Shown piece by piece: positions 5,700 to 27,509 of a stretch of DNA of 37,628 bases (positions are counted from its first letter, which is position 1; the number at the start of each line of letters is the position of its first letter). The notes below the pieces were generated by a model that saw only the letters and a program-made list of their open reading frames with translations, was not told the origin of the DNA and searched no databases. This DNA comes from a virus: positions 1 to 37,628 of the IMG/VR virus record IMGVR_UViG_3300030329_004866. One strand, 5' to 3'. The position numbers and the translations under genes were made by a program.

Positions 5700-6140
5700 A
5701 TGTATGCAAATAGTGAGATTGATGCTTACATATCTGAAAACTGGGATACTCTCAGAAAAGATAAAGACGCAGCAATTGCAATTGGTGTCATCAGAGGCAT
5801 AGCAGTTCAGAGAGTAGCTTCTGAAAATATGAATGGTGAGTTTGTAGCTGACTACGGTTATGATTACATGCACGATGAATATGGTCGTGTTGAAGTGAAG
5901 TCGACAGGCTATGTACAGCCTGGTGGATTGAGAATTAACAGCGTGATGTCCAAGAAAGACAATTGTGATCATATTCATATCATCGATATGGTCAATGATA
6001 AACAGTTCATGATACCACATGATGTCTTCTTCACAGAGTTGAATTTGAATGGTGATATGTTGTGGTGGTCAGCAACATACAACCAAGAAGACAAGATCAA
6101 GCGTGAGAATACAGCTATCTTGCTTGAGTTTGAAATATGA
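5700..6140 (+). CDS. Possible PD-(D/E)XK-type nuclease-like protein
   Basis: A 146-residue protein with DYGYDYMHDEYGRVEVKSTG around residues 51-70. The acidic residues followed by EVK in a beta-strand-like context resemble the D...(D/E)XK core of restriction-type nucleases, followed by another predicted strand (HIHIIDMV). The similarity is weak and based on pattern only; a non-catalytic role is possible. It heads the plus-strand run 5700-7756 from the promoter at 5636, with a GAGAGAGATACA leader. Its TGA overlaps the next ATG. Confidence 0.55.
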   Translation: MYANSEIDAYISENWDTLRKDKDAAIAIGVIRGIAVQRVASENMNGEFVADYGYDYMHDEYGRVEVKSTGYVQPGGLRINSVMSKKDNCDHIHIIDMVNDKQFMIPHDVFFTELNLNGDMLWWSATYNQEDKIKRENTAILLEFEI

Positions 6141-6412
6141 ACATCAATGAGATAAGCATTCATAGGCTAGTGCCTATATACCTCATGTCGTCTTATCTGT
6201 ATTACAGGAAAGACAGTCACAAGCTATCAGATGGTGAGTTTGATACACTGTGCAAAAGAATGTTGGATAACTGGACCAAGATCAGGCATCCACATAAGCG
6301 GCTAATCAAGAAAAAGGATCTTGAAGCTGGAACCGGGTATGCAATAAAGAAGTACCCAACAATTGTAATGTCATCGGCAGAGAGGTGGCTGGCAGGAGAA
6401 TATGATGATTAA
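6137..6412 (+). CDS. Small protein resembling the Ia region of NAD-dependent ligases
   Basis: A 91-residue protein with SYLYYRKDSHKLSDGEFDTLCKRMLDNW (split here as residues 19-46) and EAGTGYAIKKYP. The tyrosine-rich stretch followed by SDxExDxL recalls subdomain Ia of bacterial LigA, and I recall such short proteins being labelled LigA-related in phages; there is no catalytic lysine domain, so ligase activity is not expected. It starts in an ATGA overlap and overlaps the next gene by 11 nt. Confidence 0.55.
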   Translation: MNINEISIHRLVPIYLMSSYLYYRKDSHKLSDGEFDTLCKRMLDNWTKIRHPHKRLIKKKDLEAGTGYAIKKYPTIVMSSAERWLAGEYDD

Positions 6413-8140: not shown

Positions 8141-8276
8141 AGAAATGGTCCATAGCCTAAAAGAGGCTAGCATGCTTTACCCAGACAAGACACAAGAGCA
8201 GCTGATTGAAACCGCAGCTAGACTTTCAGGTGTCCCAGAGTATATGTTTGGGTGGTTGGATGACAAAAGACAGTGA
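8103..8276 (+). CDS. Small hypothetical protein overlapping its neighbours
   Basis: About 57 residues, helical, with LKEASMLYPDKTQEQLIETAARLSG as a possible three-helix binding domain. The start is uncertain: ATG 8091, 8103 and 8145 are in frame; GGAG at 8095-8098 favours 8103. It overlaps the preceding gene by 38 nt and the radical SAM gene by 17 nt. Function unknown. Confidence 0.5.
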   Translation: MRNQGTKWQTLREEMVHSLKEASMLYPDKTQEQLIETAARLSGVPEYMFGWLDDKRQ

Positions 8277-9795
8277 TGAATATCACAAAGGATGGCATGA
8301 AAAACTAGGTAATGTTAGTCCCAGTTTTTGTCTGGCAAAGTGGAAGCAGGTAACACTGCATCTACAAATTGGTCATAAGCATAGCTGTCACCATCCAAAC
8401 ACGCATAAGATAGACGTAGAGGCTATCAAGAAAGACCCATCTGCCCTTCATAATACTGCCGAGTCCTTTAGAACCAGGCAGCAGATGAGGGAAGGTATCC
8501 GTCCGGACGAATGTGGGTATTGTTGGAAAGCAGAAGATACAGGTTCGTTTAGTGACCGTGTCTACAAAAGTGCCACACGTTGGGCATACCCTTTCTTCGA
8601 TGAGGTAGTCAACAATAAGAAGGATGAGAACATCTTTCCTTCTTATCTCGAGGTTAGTTTCAGTAACGTATGCAACTTCAAATGTACGTACTGTGCTCCA
8701 CATATCAGTAGCCAATGGTTCCAAGAAATTGAACAGCATGGTGGTTTCCCTTTGACGTATAAGGGAGCTGGATACACATACAATGATATGGCTATGCTCG
8801 AGCAGCAAGATAAGATGCCTATCCCACACAAGGAAGAAAACCCATATGTGGAGGCATTCTGGAAATGGTGGCCACAGCTATACAGACATCTACAGACGTT
8901 TCGTATAACTGGTGGTGAGCCATTGCTGACAAAGAACACATTCAAGGTTCTTGATTCTATCATCGACGATCCTATTCCAAACAAAAATCTTAGGCTAGAG
9001 ATAAACACCAATCTTTGTGTTCCTGATTCAATCTTTGATGACTTTGTTTCTAAATTAGATAGGTTGGCTACTGATAGATGTACTGGTCCAATCACAATAT
9101 ATTCAAGCTGTGAAGCTAAAGGTGAGAAGGCTGAGTATATTAGAACTGGATTAGATTATGAAAAACATTTACGTAGCTTGAAGACAATCCTAGATATGTT
9201 TTGTAAGCATAAGTTAAAACCTCATCACTACAAGGACCCTGTTAGATATAACCATATGGCATATATGTGCACGTACAATTTATTGAGCGTGACATCATTC
9301 AAAGGATTCTTAGAGGACATTGTTGAGATCAGGTCTGGTCTTGAGTTTTCTGATGAGCTACTTGAGCATGCCCAGGATATATGTGACCACCCTCAGAACC
9401 ATCTATACGAAACACAAGAGCGTGACAATATTAGATCATTAGCTGGTGGAGCTATGTACTTAGCAACTCAAGCTAATACAATAGACATTCCTTTTCTAAG
9501 ACACCCGGCTCATATGTGCATAGATATACTTACGGACGACTTCGATGAATACTTTGAAGAGTCCTATCAGTACATGAGAGACAACCCATGGTTCTCTGAA
9601 TTTGAAACAAGAAAGATGGAACGTGTGTGGAATGTTTATAAAAATAATACAATGCCTAATGAAAATAAAAGAATGTTACGTAAACAATTCCAACAATACG
9701 TTGACCAATTAGACAAAAGGAGGGATACTAACTTTTTGGAAGTATTCCCCGAATATACCAACTTCTATGATTATTGCAAAGGGTTACCAGCATAA
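8260..9795 (+). CDS. Radical SAM protein, twitch/SPASM type
   Basis: A 511-residue protein with the radical SAM signature CNFKCTYC (Cys 138, 142, 145) and a following GGEP motif (RITGGEPLL), so it should bind a 4Fe-4S cluster and cleave S-adenosylmethionine. Further Cys/His lie N-terminal to the core (SCHHP, ECGYCW), a possible auxiliary site. I recall similar large radical SAM proteins from marine T4-like phages with unknown substrates. I start it at ATG 8260; the frame is open further upstream but inside the preceding gene. Next come a small basic protein and a glutaredoxin. Confidence 0.85.
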   Translation: MTKDSDEYHKGWHEKLGNVSPSFCLAKWKQVTLHLQIGHKHSCHHPNTHKIDVEAIKKDPSALHNTAESFRTRQQMREGIRPDECGYCWKAEDTGSFSDRVYKSATRWAYPFFDEVVNNKKDENIFPSYLEVSFSNVCNFKCTYCAPHISSQWFQEIEQHGGFPLTYKGAGYTYNDMAMLEQQDKMPIPHKEENPYVEAFWKWWPQLYRHLQTFRITGGEPLLTKNTFKVLDSIIDDPIPNKNLRLEINTNLCVPDSIFDDFVSKLDRLATDRCTGPITIYSSCEAKGEKAEYIRTGLDYEKHLRSLKTILDMFCKHKLKPHHYKDPVRYNHMAYMCTYNLLSVTSFKGFLEDIVEIRSGLEFSDELLEHAQDICDHPQNHLYETQERDNIRSLAGGAMYLATQANTIDIPFLRHPAHMCIDILTDDFDEYFEESYQYMRDNPWFSEFETRKMERVWNVYKNNTMPNENKRMLRKQFQQYVDQLDKRRDTNFLEVFPEYTNFYDYCKGLPA

Positions 9796-20849: not shown

Positions 20850-21350
20850 ATGGATGTGATTTTCGATATTGATGGGACGTTGGTGGACATTAGCCATCGG
20901 CTGAAATACATTGGGGCTCCTAGGGAGCATACCAAACTCGATGATGATGAGCACAAGCGCCTGTCCAAAAAGGACTGGAAAGCGTTCCGTGATCCATTGA
21001 AAAAGCGGTGGGATGAGCCAATTTGGCCTGTTATCAGCACTTTATTGGCTCTCCACGCTGCTGGACACCGGATTCTCATTGCTTCCGGCCGGACTAAGTC
21101 GGAAAAAGAAGGTACCTTGGATTCTCTCAGGACATATATACCCTTCATAGACGATGTCCCTCTGTATATGCGTAGTGATGGAGACTTTCGAAAGGATACT
21201 GTCGTAAAGTCTGCAATGCTCGATAAGATGCTAGATGCTGGGTACAAACCAGTTATGGTCTTTGATGACAGACCTTCTGTCATAGAGATGTGGCATAGCA
21301 GAGGATTGAAAGTCATGGATGTGAGAGATCCATCCAAAGGAAATTTTTAA
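20850..21350 (+). CDS. PNKP-type 3'-phosphatase (HAD)
   Basis: The 166-residue protein reads as the phosphatase domain of T4 polynucleotide kinase: DIDGTLVDISHR (residues 6-17), then ILIASGRTKSEKEG, YMRSDGDFRKDTVVK (about 110-124) and PVMVFDDRPSVIEMWHSRG (about 134-152). It should remove 3' phosphates from nucleic acid ends. The kinase domain is absent, so it is a stand-alone phosphatase. GAGGAGAAG precedes the ATG. It may work with the ligase-like protein at 4400. Confidence 0.85.
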   Translation: MDVIFDIDGTLVDISHRLKYIGAPREHTKLDDDEHKRLSKKDWKAFRDPLKKRWDEPIWPVISTLLALHAAGHRILIASGRTKSEKEGTLDSLRTYIPFIDDVPLYMRSDGDFRKDTVVKSAMLDKMLDAGYKPVMVFDDRPSVIEMWHSRGLKVMDVRDPSKGNF

Positions 21351-21530: not shown

Positions 21531-21559
21531 TTGACTATCAATCCATAATGGAGGATAAA
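21531..21559 (+). promoter_or_regulatory. Promoter of the tmRNA gene
   Basis: TTGACT (21531-21536), 17-nt spacer, GATAAA (21554-21559). GATAAATA (21554-21561) also comes close to the T4 late motif TATAAATA, so both early and late use are possible. Confidence 0.6.
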
Positions 21560-21569
21560 TAATAACGTA

Positions 21570-21858
21570 ACGCTGAAGAGGATCAAAAGCTAGACAGGAC
21601 CGGGGTGCAAATCCCCGCACCTCCACCATAAGCACTTGGCATCGAAAGTAAGTTCCTTGGCCAAGGCGGTGAAATCCAAGTGTTTATGGGGGGTGTGCTA
21701 GGATCGACTGGTAGTGATTAGTGAATTGGAGTTACGAGGCTGACCGCTTTATAGGTCAAACACTATAAATGCAAACGATAATTTTGCACCAATGGCACTT
21801 GCTGCTTAAGCAGTAAGGATACCGGAGTTCGGGAGGCACTTGGCAACAGAAGCCTCCC
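21570..21858 (+). ncRNA. ssrA: Circularly permuted (two-piece) tmRNA
   Basis: The acceptor piece comes first: T-arm CGGGG-TGCAAAT-CCCCG (21601-21617), acceptor strand CACCTCC, then A and CCA (to 21628). A linker (21629-21688) folds as an 11-bp helix (TAAGCACTTGG with CCAAGTGTTTA). The coding piece starts GGGGGTG (21689-21695), pairing with CACCTCC with one G-U, and continues with GGATCGAC like other tmRNAs. The tag frame starts at GCA 21771 and ends at TAA 21809, encoding ANDNFAPMALAA. A stem GGGAGGC/GCCTCCC (21831-21858) ends it. It should rescue stalled ribosomes and tag proteins for ClpXP-type proteolysis, using host SmpB. The 5' end is estimated. Confidence 0.93.
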
Positions 21859-21877
21859 ACTTATTTAAGGAGAGGAA

Positions 21878-22195
21878 ATGTCAGAAGTTCTAACAATTAC
21901 AGACAATGCTAAAGAATATATGAACAAGGTGGCTGATGGTAAGTATGTCACGTTGGGTGTTCGTAGTGGTGGATGTGCTGGTTTAGAATATGAGTGGGGA
22001 CTATCAGATAGTGTTGAACATGAGACTATTAAGTGGACTCCTATAGATGATATTTTGTTGATCGATCCTATGGCAGAAATGTTCATGTTTGGATCGGTTG
22101 TGGATTATGTTAATGAACTAGGAGGTGCATACTTGAAAGTGGTTAATCCAATGGCTCAATCACAGTGTGGGTGTGGTACTAGCTTCTCAGCATGA
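21878..22195 (+). CDS. iscA: A-type Fe-S cluster carrier (IscA/HesB)
   Basis: The 105-residue protein has the three family cysteines: GGCAGLEY (Cys33) and CGCGTSFSA at the C-terminus (Cys97 and Cys99). Such proteins carry Fe-S clusters to apo-proteins; a radical SAM enzyme in the same window is a possible client. HesB-like genes are common in marine T4-like phages. AAGGAGAGG precedes the ATG; it directly follows the tmRNA and may be read from the same promoter. Its end overlaps the next gene by 4 nt. Confidence 0.92.
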   Translation: MSEVLTITDNAKEYMNKVADGKYVTLGVRSGGCAGLEYEWGLSDSVEHETIKWTPIDDILLIDPMAEMFMFGSVVDYVNELGGAYLKVVNPMAQSQCGCGTSFSA

Positions 22196-22995: not shown

Positions 22996-23629
22996 AGCTT
23001 GGGAAGTTTGTGCTCGATCGATCGAATACTATAACGAACTACATGGTGCCAATAATGTTCAAGTGATCAAACTTAGATCACAAGACATACCTGAATACAA
23101 TAGAGACCATGGTGAGCCTCAATCTACAGATTTCACATTTACACGATTCTGGGTACCATACCTGACAGGGTTTAAAGGCACCGCTATTTTTGTTGACTGT
23201 GATTTTTTATTCCTTGAAGATATTAGTTTGATTGAATGGTATGCTCGTGACCATGCTGTAGCTGTTGTACAGCATCCTCCATATCAGCCTCATAGTGATG
23301 TTAAGATGGATGGTGTAGCACAGCATAGATCGTATAGAAAGAACTGGGCTTCTCTAATGGTATTCAATTGTGAGCATCCATCTAATGCTATCCTAACACC
23401 AGACTATCTTAACAACCATACACCAGGATTAGACTTTCACCATCTTTCGTGGTTGAAGGACGAAGAGATTAACTCGATTCCTTTGGATTGGAATTGTCTT
23501 GATGGTTATTATGATTTGATCGATCCTAGAGCAATCCATTATACAGATGGTGGCCCTTGGTTTGATGAATATAAAAATACAAAATATTCACATCTATGGA
23601 TAGACTTTGAAGAGAACTTTATGTCATGA
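22940..23629 (+). CDS. Glycosyltransferase, GT8-like
   Basis: The 229-residue protein has TAIFVDCDFLFLEDI with a D-x-D motif for metal and nucleotide-sugar binding, WASLMVFNCEH, and IHYTDGGPWF near the C-terminus, all typical of GT8-type (GT-A) enzymes. Donor and acceptor are unknown. AGAGGTG lies upstream of ATG 22940, inside the preceding gene. It overlaps the QueC-like gene by 4 nt. Confidence 0.8.
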   Translation: MSYSSTLPTYIGYEAREHRAWEVCARSIEYYNELHGANNVQVIKLRSQDIPEYNRDHGEPQSTDFTFTRFWVPYLTGFKGTAIFVDCDFLFLEDISLIEWYARDHAVAVVQHPPYQPHSDVKMDGVAQHRSYRKNWASLMVFNCEHPSNAILTPDYLNNHTPGLDFHHLSWLKDEEINSIPLDWNCLDGYYDLIDPRAIHYTDGGPWFDEYKNTKYSHLWIDFEENFMS

Positions 23630-24258
23630 GTGAAGACCTTGCTCCATATATCCAACACAATTTGAAATTACATAGAAAGATTGGTATGTTCATCTCGGGT
23701 GGGTTTGACAGTGCATTATTGCTGTACCTGGTCAATGAGATCAACAACCGCACATTTAAAAAAGAAAAGAATCGTAGTACGCTGACAGCATATACTGTTC
23801 CTAAGTACGATGGTTCATACGACCATTCACCCAACGTAGTTAAGTGGGTCAATCCAAACATTGAAATTAAGACTGTTGGTGATAAAGATTTGCCACACAA
23901 CAAACAGGTTGGTAGTGGTGTAAAGGAAGTTATGCTATCTGGTGAACAAGATCAAGTGTATATTGCACATACTGTGGTGCATGATTGGATGGACTTTCCA
24001 GGAGGCTTGAAGGTTGTCCGTCAGGAGAATAAACATCCTAAGTTCATATTCATGCCGTACATGGATATGAAGTTAGACAAAGCAGACACAATTCGTCTAG
24101 CTAAAGACTTATTAAGTGTGGATCAATTTAAGCAGCTTTGTGAAATCACACACTCATGCACACAGACAACAGGTAAGAGGTGCGGTGTGTGTTGGCATTG
24201 TCAAGAAAGAGCATGGGGATTCAAGCAAGCAGAAATGACAGATTATGGAGAAATGTAA
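23626..24258 (+). CDS. QueC-like PP-loop ATPase
   Basis: The 210-residue protein has the PP-loop SGGFDS (residues 24-29) and a C-terminal zinc site C-x8-C-x2-C-x2-C (HSCTQTTGKRCGVCWHCQERAWGF), exactly the layout of QueC, which makes 7-cyano-7-deazaguanine. None of QueD, QueE, FolE or a transglycosylase is in the window. Its place between glycosyltransferases leaves open a different ATP-dependent amidation or ligation on a sugar precursor. The start overlaps the upstream stop (ATGA). Confidence 0.75.
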   Translation: MSEDLAPYIQHNLKLHRKIGMFISGGFDSALLLYLVNEINNRTFKKEKNRSTLTAYTVPKYDGSYDHSPNVVKWVNPNIEIKTVGDKDLPHNKQVGSGVKEVMLSGEQDQVYIAHTVVHDWMDFPGGLKVVRQENKHPKFIFMPYMDMKLDKADTIRLAKDLLSVDQFKQLCEITHSCTQTTGKRCGVCWHCQERAWGFKQAEMTDYGEM

Positions 24259-25050: not shown

Positions 25051-25560
25051 ATGAAAACATGGAAGAGAGTAGTGCTGGTCGGTGGTACGATCGGTTTGAT
25101 AATGGGCTTGGTCGTTGGTCAAGCCCGTGGTTCACAAGAAATTAATGATGATTTGTATTGCTTGTCTGAGGCCATTTACTTTGAGGCGGGCAACCAACCG
25201 TTTGTTGGTAAGATGGCAGTTGCTGAAGTGATTCTTAACAGAGTAGAACATATCACATATCCAAATAATATTTGTGATGTTGTTCATCAAGGTCCTGTTA
25301 GAGAGAGTTGGAAAAGGGATGGAACATACTATCCTGTTCGTTGGAGATGTCAATTCACATATTGGTGTGATGGTAAGGCAGATGTGCCATTAGAATCCGA
25401 TACGTGGGAACAGTCTTTGTCAGCTGCATATCTAATGATTACCGGTAATGTGTCGGTGGTAGAAGGTGCAACGCATTATCATGCTACATATGTCAGTCCT
25501 TCGTGGGCCAAGAATCTAAGAAAATTAGTAACCATAGAGGATCACATATTCTACAAATGA
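25051..25560 (+). CDS. SleB-type cell wall hydrolase, probable endolysin
   Basis: The 169-residue protein has an N-terminal hydrophobic segment (residues 7-24, rich in Gly/Val) that could be a signal or signal-anchor-release sequence, then the Hydrolase_2 (PF07486) core: LSEAIYFEAGNQPFVGKMAVAEVILNR (Glu40 and Glu45 are candidate catalytic residues), ICDVV, CQFTYWCDG and THYHA. It should cut peptidoglycan at lysis, and the N-terminal segment suggests export without a holin-only route. Its TGA overlaps the gene 33 start. Confidence 0.85.
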   Translation: MKTWKRVVLVGGTIGLIMGLVVGQARGSQEINDDLYCLSEAIYFEAGNQPFVGKMAVAEVILNRVEHITYPNNICDVVHQGPVRESWKRDGTYYPVRWRCQFTYWCDGKADVPLESDTWEQSLSAAYLMITGNVSVVEGATHYHATYVSPSWAKNLRKLVTIEDHIFYK

Positions 25561-25790
25561 TTGATCTTAATATAAAGACGCCATCAGCATTTGCAGAAGA
25601 GATTGAACAGATGGTTAAGGACCTGTCTATATCTCACTTCGATGCTATCGTGCATTATTGTGATCGTAATGAAATTGAAATTGAGACTGTGGCTTCATGG
25701 GTCAAAGGTAGTCAAGTATTGAAGTCGAAGGTTATGTTAAACGCACAGGATCTAAATATGATCAAAAAGTCAGCAAGATTGCCAATATGA
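25557..25790 (+). CDS. 33: Late transcription coactivator, gp33-like
   Basis: The 77-residue protein (FAEEIEQMVKDLSISHFDAIVHYC ... LNAQDLNMIKKSARLPI) matches the pattern I know for gp33 of T4-like cyanophages, and it sits directly before genes 59 and 32 as in T4. gp33 bridges RNA polymerase with the sliding clamp at late promoters. ATG 25557 overlaps the endolysin stop (ATGA); the open frame to 25503 is inside that gene. No gp55 is in this window. Confidence 0.75.
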   Translation: MIDLNIKTPSAFAEEIEQMVKDLSISHFDAIVHYCDRNEIEIETVASWVKGSQVLKSKVMLNAQDLNMIKKSARLPI

Positions 25791-25984
25791 TGGAGGTAGT
25801 TTGGCAAATTATGTTGATTGTGTGCATGAATGTAAACTGCATAGATCAACCAGTAGAGGAATATAGTAGTGAAAAGGAATGCATCAAAGGGCTTGAATTC
25901 TATGAGCAGTTTCCTAAAGATAGAAATAGTAAATGGGATCGTGTGGAATACATTTGTAAGCCAAAAGGATCTCGATCAACATGA
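25787..25984 (+). CDS. Small protein with leader-like N-terminus and cysteines
   Basis: The 65-residue protein starts with a hydrophobic stretch (VVWQIMLIVCMNVNC) and continues YSSEKECIKGLEFYEQ and YICKPKG. Layout resembles the genes at 2325 and 6402: leader, Ser/Glu/Cys before a helix, then a late Cys. Possibly exported with a disulfide. It is inserted between 33 and 59, coupled to both by 4-nt overlaps. Confidence 0.6.
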   Translation: MMEVVWQIMLIVCMNVNCIDQPVEEYSSEKECIKGLEFYEQFPKDRNSKWDRVEYICKPKGSRST

Positions 25985-26550
25985 ATGAGTACGAATGCTA
26001 TACGACATATATGGCTTTGAAGAGGCACTTCACCTCTGACTATGATATATTTAAGTATCGTGGTAAGGTCAACAATACTGAAAAGTCAAGATTTGATGTT
26101 CGTAAAGACAAGTACTTTTTCTACAAGCTGTCTAAGCTAAAAGATCCTCGATCATTCATGTTAGCTAACATTGTTAATGATCCAAACTTCTTCCCTGGTG
26201 ACGTTAAGAATATGACCTGTCATGCAGTATATACTAATTGGCAGAAAAGACGTCAAAGCATGGGATACACATTTCGTAGTGAGATTGCCAAAATGCACGA
26301 GAAGTATGATGACAATCTCCTCGTCAAAGAATCACACCCTTATCTTATGAGATTAGTGTTAAGGGGTGATGTCTGTCTGGAGACATTTATTATTCTGAAC
26401 AAACTCACACCATTCTTTCAATATTGGAACAAGAAACTGGAAGGTGACATGATCTGGAATGATTTACGTTTGAAGGCAGTTAAGTATGAGCCGTTCTTAG
26501 ATGTTGACTTATATAAATATAAGCAGTATACTATGGAACACTTTGAATAA
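25981..26550 (+). CDS. 59: Helicase loader gp59
   Basis: The 189-residue all-helical protein follows T4 gp59: YTTYMALKRHFTSDYDIFKY at the start, then RKDKYFFYKLSKL, LANIVNDPNFFPGD, LVLRGDVCLETFIILNKL and a C-terminal MIWNDLRLKAVKYEPFL. gp59 loads the replicative helicase gp41 onto gp32-covered fork DNA. T4 gp59 is about 217 residues, so this is a little shorter. It sits between 33 and 32, as in T4. Confidence 0.9.
   Translation: MNEYECYTTYMALKRHFTSDYDIFKYRGKVNNTEKSRFDVRKDKYFFYKLSKLKDPRSFMLANIVNDPNFFPGDVKNMTCHAVYTNWQKRRQSMGYTFRSEIAKMHEKYDDNLLVKESHPYLMRLVLRGDVCLETFIILNKLTPFFQYWNKKLEGDMIWNDLRLKAVKYEPFLDVDLYKYKQYTMEHFE
26504..26532 (+). promoter_or_regulatory. Early-type promoter for gene 32
   Basis: TTGACT (26504-26509), 17-nt spacer, TATACT (26527-26532), inside the end of gene 59. 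The spacer contains a TATAAATA late element, so gene 32 seems to have overlapping early and late start signals. Confidence 0.65.
26512..26519 (+). promoter_or_regulatory. T4-type late promoter element for gene 32
   Basis: TATAAATA in the plus orientation, 82 nt before gene 32. The T4 late consensus is TATAAATA, recognised with gp55/gp33. Lying in AT-rich sequence, it could be chance, but two other copies precede late genes at 33 kb. Confidence 0.5.
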
Positions 26551-26600
26551 ACCGTACACGATTATATAACGCATATACCGCATATAGAAGGAGAAAACGC

Positions 26601-27509
26601 ATGGCTACAAGTTTTGCCGCAATGAAGAAAAATCGTCAATCTGACGTAGAGAAGCTAACAGCTTCTATCTCTAAACTCCAAGGAAATACTCAACGAGATG
26701 ATGATGGGTTCTGGAAGCCAGAAGTCGATAAGGCTGGTAACGGAATGGCTATCATTCGTTTCCTTCCTGCACCTCAGGGTGAGGAAGAGCCTTTCGTCCG
26801 TATCTGGGATCATGGATTCCAAGGTCCTGGTGGTTGGTTTATTGAGAAATCTTTGACAACCCTTGGTGACAAATGTCCTGTTTCGGAGTATAACTCTATG
26901 CTCTGGAACTCTGGTACTGAGGCTGATAAGACCTTCGTTCGTTCGAAGTCTAAGCGCCGTCTTGGTTACATCTCCAACATCTACGTTGTAAAGGATCCTG
27001 CTAATCCTGATAACGAAGGTAAGGTGTTCTTGTACAAGTATGGCAAAAGGATCTTTGATAAGATTGTTGAAGCTCAACAGCCCGAGTTTGATGATGAGAC
27101 ACCAGTCAATCCTTTTGATCTTTGGGATGGAGCTAACTTCCGTCTAAAGATTCGTAAGGTAGAGGGCTATCGTAATTATGATAAGTCTGAGTTTGATAGT
27201 CCAGCCTCTTTGCTGGATGATGATCAGGAACTTGAAGATGTATGGAAGCAAGAGAAGCCTTTACAGGAGTTTCTTGATCCTAAGAACTTCAAGAGCTATG
27301 ATGAGCTGAAAGCTAAGCTGTATCGAGTGCTAGCACTTGATGGTGGACCTACTGCCAATACTATGACTGCTGATGAAGTTGTCAGTGCTCCGGTAGTAGA
27401 AGCAAAGGCTGCTCCAGCTCCTAAAGCTGAAGAGTCAACTCCTCCTTGGGATGATTCTGATGATGATGACAGCTTGTCTTTCTTTAAGAAGTTAGCTGAC
27501 GACGAATAA
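26601..27509 (+). CDS. 32: Single-stranded DNA-binding protein gp32
   Basis: The 302-residue protein has the basic N-terminal LAST-like region (AAMKKNRQSDVEKL), the OB-fold core (MAIIRFLPAPQGEEEPFVRIWDHG, GGWFIEKSLTTLGDKCPVSEYN) and an acidic C-terminal tail (DDSDDDDSLSFFKKLADDE) that recruits other replication proteins. It coats ssDNA in replication and recombination. The zinc site of T4 gp32 (His and three Cys) is missing: only one Cys remains in CPVSEYN. AAGGAG precedes the ATG. Codon use suggests high expression. Confidence 0.95.
   Translation: MATSFAAMKKNRQSDVEKLTASISKLQGNTQRDDDGFWKPEVDKAGNGMAIIRFLPAPQGEEEPFVRIWDHGFQGPGGWFIEKSLTTLGDKCPVSEYNSMLWNSGTEADKTFVRSKSKRRLGYISNIYVVKDPANPDNEGKVFLYKYGKRIFDKIVEAQQPEFDDETPVNPFDLWDGANFRLKIRKVEGYRNYDKSEFDSPASLLDDDQELEDVWKQEKPLQEFLDPKNFKSYDELKAKLYRVLALDGGPTANTMTADEVVSAPVVEAKAAPAPKAEESTPPWDDSDDDDSLSFFKKLADDE

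Follow-up and report, generated by a model that had tools for sequence, protein, structure and literature searches.

A permuted two-piece tmRNA gene in a T4-like phage, with selection on its fold and tag

The window analysed here comprises an entire virus record of 37.6 kb, which is probably part of a larger genome, and carries a permuted (two-piece) tmRNA gene at 21566-21862. By every feature tested the locus is a permuted tmRNA. Its helices covary among related copies, its tag is conserved, and it has long been retained in the same neighbourhood of phage genes. We consider it likely that this is a working tmRNA of the phage's own, kept over a long time and serving ribosome rescue during infection.

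Anatomy and genomic setting

ARAGORN called the gene with the tag ANDNFAPMALAA, and two Rfam models matched it over their full length: RF04321 (tmRNA_permuted) with 113.8 bits (E 1.1e-21, model positions 1-213 of 213, cutoff 47) and RF01849 with 107.3 bits (E 1.5e-28, model positions 1-355 of 355, cutoff 50). We saw no difference from RF04321 that would exclude membership in this family. An earlier note, made from the letters alone, had proposed a two-piece tmRNA of alphaproteobacterial type in a T4-like phage, and both covariance models, being over their cutoffs, as well as the gp32, gp33, gp59 and baseplate hub/lysozyme genes of the window bear this out. The acceptor piece, with its CCA, comes first, and an intervening sequence separates it from the coding piece (Table 1). 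All landmarks given in that note hold, namely the CCA end at 21628, the coding start at 21689, the 11-bp helix (11 of 11 pairs), the acceptor pairing and the tag; its span of 21570-21858 was right in the internal boundaries, but the gene starts slightly earlier, at 21566. The end of the -10 element is about 7 nt upstream of this position, which is where the 5' end of the acceptor piece would be expected.

The identity elements of a tmRNA are complete, comprising a 7-bp acceptor stem, G3-U70, A73, CCA, a resume codon, a stop codon and an ALAA end. The alanine acceptor identity (G3-U70 and A73) is contained in 21618-21625 together with 21689-21695, and G3-U70 was found in all 117 permuted tmRNA entries collected. 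Of the 80 intervening sequences collected, 47 have a closing helix of at least 8 bp (1.9% of shuffles).

Table 1. Features of the tmRNA locus and neighbouring genes in the window
Feature	Position	Strand	Basis or remark
PNKP-type HAD phosphatase, upstream neighbour	20850-21350	+	PF25109, 93.8 bits; also adjoins the tmRNA in L123, L126 and L127
Predicted promoter: TTGACT (21531-21536), 17-bp spacer, GATAAA (21554-21559)	21531-21561	+	sigma70-like
Acceptor piece (P2 strand, T-arm, acceptor 3' strand, CCA)	21566-21628	+	RF04321 and RF01849 alignments
T-arm CGGGG-TGCAAAT-CCCCG, loop with T54 and A58	21601-21617	+	T-stem cells 100% paired in 18 sequences
Acceptor stem 3' strand CACCTCC, U70 opposite G3; A73 at 21625	21618-21624	+	7/7 pairs
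CCA	21626-21628	+	end of acceptor piece
Intervening sequence, 60 nt, predicted absent from mature RNA	21629-21688	+	11-bp closing helix
Intervening-sequence helix TAAGCACTTGG / CCAAGTGTTTA	21629-21639 / 21676-21686	+	11/11 paired
Coding piece (acceptor 5' strand, D-loop, pseudoknot region, tag, 3' hairpin)	21689-21862	+	Rfam alignments, covariation; 3' end approximate
Acceptor 5' strand GGGGGTG, 7 nt, pairs with CACCTCC 21618-21624 including G3-U70	21689-21695	+	
GTTACG, joins both pieces by pairing with CGTAAC 21566-21571	21731-21736	+	two-sided changes in 5/6 pairs
Tag frame, GCA resume codon to TAA stop, ANDNFAPMALAA	21771-21809	+	
3' hairpin GGGAGGC/GCCTCCC around ...TTGGCAACAGAA	21831-21858	+	two-sided changes in 7/7 pairs in relatives
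A-type Fe-S carrier-like protein, downstream neighbour	21878-22195	+	PF01521, 42.0 bits; 99% identical beside the L123 tmRNA
gp33-like, 65-aa ORF, gp59 and gp32 genes	25503-27509	+	neighbourhood common to Melnitz and freshwater relatives

The window comes from a T4-like myovirus, as judged by T4-type gp32 (phrog_224, 377.8 bits), gp59 (phrog_269) and gp33 (phrog_254), the structural genes for baseplate hub/tail lysozyme (phrog_430), tail tube cap (phrog_230), tail tube and head closure, and a PhoH-like protein; it thus has the replication, late transcription and tail genes of T4-like (Kyanoviridae/Straboviridae-type) phages. In two related records (L123 and L127) the tmRNA is likewise located 3' of DUF932 and PNKP-type phosphatase genes and 5' of gp33-gp59-gp32, and in L126 it occupies the corresponding place, with the contig breaking off inside the tmRNA. 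Freshwater relatives and the phage Melnitz also carry it upstream of gp33-gp59-gp32. Elsewhere in the window we noted a partial QueC-like match (23626-24258) and a short protein (6137-6412) that matches only the N-terminal NAD+-binding domain of DNA ligase.

The path from gene to function is probably that of two-piece tmRNAs in general. A single precursor would be transcribed from the tmRNA's own promoter and cut at the CCA end by host tRNA-processing enzymes, while an RNase P cut before 21689 would remove the 60-nt intervening sequence, the two mature pieces remaining paired. Charging by the host AlaRS via G3-U70 would follow, and host SmpB would bring the charged tmRNA to ribosomes stalled on broken mRNA, where trans-translation would add the tag, mark the product for degradation and set the ribosomes free. 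The likely benefit to the phage, and the simplest reason for having the gene, would be that ribosomes are kept free as mRNA is degraded during infection. As the earlier note had stated, a search of the window gave no smpB; none was found in 22 related records either (23 phage records, all fragments), so that host SmpB would presumably be used. This absence from fragmentary records and an RF01849 score far under that of host genes count against a working tmRNA.

Selection on fold, tag and promoter

The tag of the relative L123 has the identical 12 residues and differs from the window tag only by synonymous codon changes, with TAG in place of TAA as the stop. The final two codons encode alanine in all 58 distinct viral tags, and all four alanine codons are used. 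These patterns indicate that the tag is evolving as a protein and is under protein-level selection. Long tags of 24 to 29 residues were observed in L029, L061, L089, L052, L279 and L290, for example ANDNASNVFSFVDFSNARKYVNEDFALAA.

The middle and the length of viral tags vary (about 9 to 29 residues), and the viral tmRNAs form a lineage distinct from host genes, as would be expected if the tmRNA were charged but competed with or redirected the trans-translation of the host, a different tag or affinity altering the fate of the tagged proteins. There is a precedent in the tagless phage tmRNA of DS6A, which inhibits the endogenous tmRNA (PMC11915505). We regard such interference as unlikely, since ANDN and an ALAA-type end are kept in nearly all viral tags as they are in hosts, so that the outcome looks alike, and the DS6A form lacks the tag that the window tmRNA has. 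Ribosome rescue remains the reading that we prefer.

The fold was examined in an alignment of 18 related tmRNAs with the intervening sequences removed and the structure read from the window copy. In total 91.4% of pair cells were paired, compared to 39-49% with slid partners, a percentage that is biased upward by deriving the structure from one of the 18 sequences; the bias is smaller for two-sided (compensatory) changes, which were found in 23 of 36 pairs and in six of seven helices. The covariation score was 0.454, compared to at most 0.109 when partners were slid by 1-3 columns, and was reached by none of 500 shuffles.

The T-loop TGCAAAT had been described in the earlier note as a departure from the usual form. 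Among 58 distinct viral tmRNAs, however, 17 have T54 with A58, which is thus a recurrent form; G with G occupies these positions in 39 viral genes and 25 host genes, with two exceptions to either combination. The collected alphaproteobacterial genes mostly have GGCRGTA, and the main viral forms are GGCRGTA or TGCRA... We therefore rejected the idea of a defect; the loop is a variant that recurs and in which the 54/58 pair is compensated.

Upstream of the gene, the stretch GATAAATA (21554-21561), which contains the -10 element, also fits the late motif NATAAATA of T4-like phages. The pattern TTGACW-N18-ATAAAT has a single exact match in the window, which is the tmRNA promoter, and 39 of the 57 viral tmRNA genes have a similar promoter at the corresponding position (0.07% of shuffles). 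The late motif DATAAATA is not enriched across the whole window (7 found, 7.3 expected), so that the argument for late use of the tmRNA promoter is purely one of position and conservation. Marine T4-like phages use the late motif NATAAATA, and an overlap of early with late promoters has been given as the cause of their middle-type expression (PMC2984593). The promoter of the tmRNA matches either type and may be used twice.

The covariance score below that of host genes, together with a T-loop and a -10 element (GATAAA) that differ from the commonest forms, might suggest a decaying, functionless passenger copy picked up from a host, but the complete pairing with compensatory changes, the synonymous-only evolution of the tag, the conserved promoter and the syntenic retention in diverged phages contradict this, and we consider it highly improbable.

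Relation to host genes and known phage tmRNAs

The two-piece form was described from phages in 2022, when it made up 53 of the 133 unique tmRNA structures of phages, 50 of these 53 being aquatic (PMC9004378). The window tmRNA is not novel in kind, this kind having already been reported from aquatic phages; the presence of a two-piece tmRNA in a T4-like phage stands, but in view of that publication and of the copy in Melnitz it is not a first.

Nucleotide searches of annotated phages with the window tmRNA and with the freshwater copy L148 gave no match, and the link to Melnitz, a Methylophilales phage (MZ577097, Kyanoviridae), was reached through the DUF932 neighbour. In this T4-like aquatic phage a permuted tmRNA of alphaproteobacterial type is annotated upstream of gp33-gp59-gp32, and the 7-bp acceptor stem and the promoter are of the same type as in the window. 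Melnitz differs in the tag ANDNYVPVDYALAA, in an intervening sequence of 142 nt and in a glutamine riboswitch adjoining the tmRNA, all of which the window lacks, whereas in the window Fe-S, queC-like and other genes are located between the tmRNA and gp33. The tmRNAs of the one-piece and tagless kinds (for example in mycobacteriophages and DS6A) are also phage-borne but not permuted, and DS6A has no tag frame (PMC11915505).

With the alphaproteobacterial genes behind RF01849 (e.g. Caulobacter) the window tmRNA shares the gene order, the acceptor stem, the resume codon context, an ANDN...AA tag and a 3' hairpin with GGCAACAGAA. It differs from them in the T-loop (TGCAAAT, not GGCRGTA), in a viral-specific sequence of the acceptor piece and in its separate tree branch, as well as in score. 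RF01849 was above cutoff in 174 of 190 genomes of the class of a Rhodobacteraceae bin, the listed scores being mostly 195-312 bits, while phage copies score about 58-141 bits (window 107), well below the host genes. The only match to the sequence pattern in the genome collection (L151, in the Rhodobacteraceae bin G023) was rejected as a host copy. This bin likely contains phage contigs, because it holds eight permuted tmRNA matches, of which only one is host-like (284 bits on RF01849).

A tree of 57 viral and 37 alphaproteobacterial ssrA genes splits the two groups at one branch (99/85), a result to be read with only about 160 columns used, a bootstrap that had not settled, a viral set mainly from one sequence pattern, and SAR11 possibly missing among the hosts. 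In a first tree two odd rows (L057 and L137) were found among the hosts; the split was obtained in a second tree, from which L137 had been left out and to which further hosts had been added. The nearest relative of the window tmRNA is L147, with 88% over 155 columns. The earlier note had inferred that the phage acquired its tmRNA. With caution, the syntenic copies in diverged relatives and the split in the tree look more like an old viral tmRNA lineage than a recent capture from a host.

Nested genes and a replacement cassette

Three viral tmRNA genes (L013, L029 and L073) have intervening sequences of about 203 nt that consist of a gene for a 62-aa protein. A search yielded 146 relatives, and the best 80 of these were checked for a tmRNA: 27 were nested in one (some near-copies), 22 had a tmRNA just downstream, and 31 had none in reach, nine of them at a contig edge. 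The loci with the nested form are 27 from L225-L294, along with L013, L029 and L073. The nested gene fills the intervening sequence exactly, starting 12-15 nt past the CCA, with its stop codon ending 1 nt short of the acceptor stem, and TAAGGACAT, which includes the Shine-Dalgarno sequence, can pair with ATGTCTTTA in the last codons, extending the acceptor stem as a linker helix. Differences among 20 nested copies are distributed over the codon positions as 2012/1110/3183, which is coding-like, and the surrounding tmRNAs still reach 58-117 bits with one of the two models. A near-identical 29-aa tag is shared by nested (L029, L294) and gene-free copies (L061 and L089, with intervening sequences of 53 and 68 nt), and L029, L061 and L089 stand together on the tree; the nested gene therefore comes and goes. 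At the window's own tmRNA the nested arrangement does not occur, and a diverged homologue of the 62-aa gene (25787-25984) is located between gp33 and gp59.

Intervening sequences in this viral tmRNA lineage can house protein genes, and we tentatively suggest that one transcript could give rise to either the small protein or, once folded and cut, the two tmRNA pieces, which would couple maturation to translation. Intervening sequences with a tRNA gene and with a repeat have been reported, one of each (PMC11915505). Our search, with most subscription papers outside its scope, found no publication on protein genes in tmRNA intervening sequences, and the exactly fitting 62-aa gene may be a new finding. 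Intervening sequences of 148-199 nt in L117, L017, L082, L060, L062 and L027 also resemble small-protein genes, the peptides of L060 and L062 being related. One viral contig (L092) carries two different permuted tmRNA genes (8159-8493 and 9090-9481) with tRNAs between them.

A different kind of insertion was found in freshwater relatives. In L137 (1770-2960, minus strand), L138, L146 and L149 an insert has destroyed the resident tmRNA. The insert contains a GIY-YIG homing-type endonuclease (PF19835, phrog_314) together with a second, complete tmRNA whose intervening sequence measures 8 nt and whose tag is ANDNSLLEMRLAA. An uninterrupted resident tmRNA is present in L148 (338-659), with flanks 100% and 99.2% identical to those of the interrupted version, and this copy looks to be from the same phage population. 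L144 (1589-2245) carries a hybrid, in which the resident acceptor piece and coding start are joined to the tag and tail of the cassette, followed by a 70-aa ORF and then the leftover resident tail; CCTAGCGGCTT.ATC flanks the insert on both sides. Judging from these copies, the freshwater tmRNA is replaced and not lost, which bears on the need of the phage for a tmRNA. This cassette, which wrecks a tmRNA and replaces it, may likewise be a new finding.

Insertions of this kind, and the fact that bacterial tmRNA genes are common insertion sites of islands (PMC11915505), could be taken to mean that the tmRNA matters mainly as a site of insertion or recombination and not as an RNA, but we give this hardly any credence, as the cassettes restore a complete tmRNA, no integrase match was found among the window neighbours scanned, and tag and helices are conserved in insertion-free copies.

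The window tmRNA, for which we favor a role in ribosome rescue, is a well-supported addition, in a T4-like phage, to the two-piece phage tmRNAs described. The comparative set adds evidence for an old phage lineage, for selection on fold and tag, and for a conserved promoter of early/late type, and this gives grounds, open to test, for a dependence of some phages on a ribosome rescue of their own. The comparative evidence might come as a surprise to the specialist, most of all the nested genes and the replacement cassette, which show that this gene survives being split and replaced.
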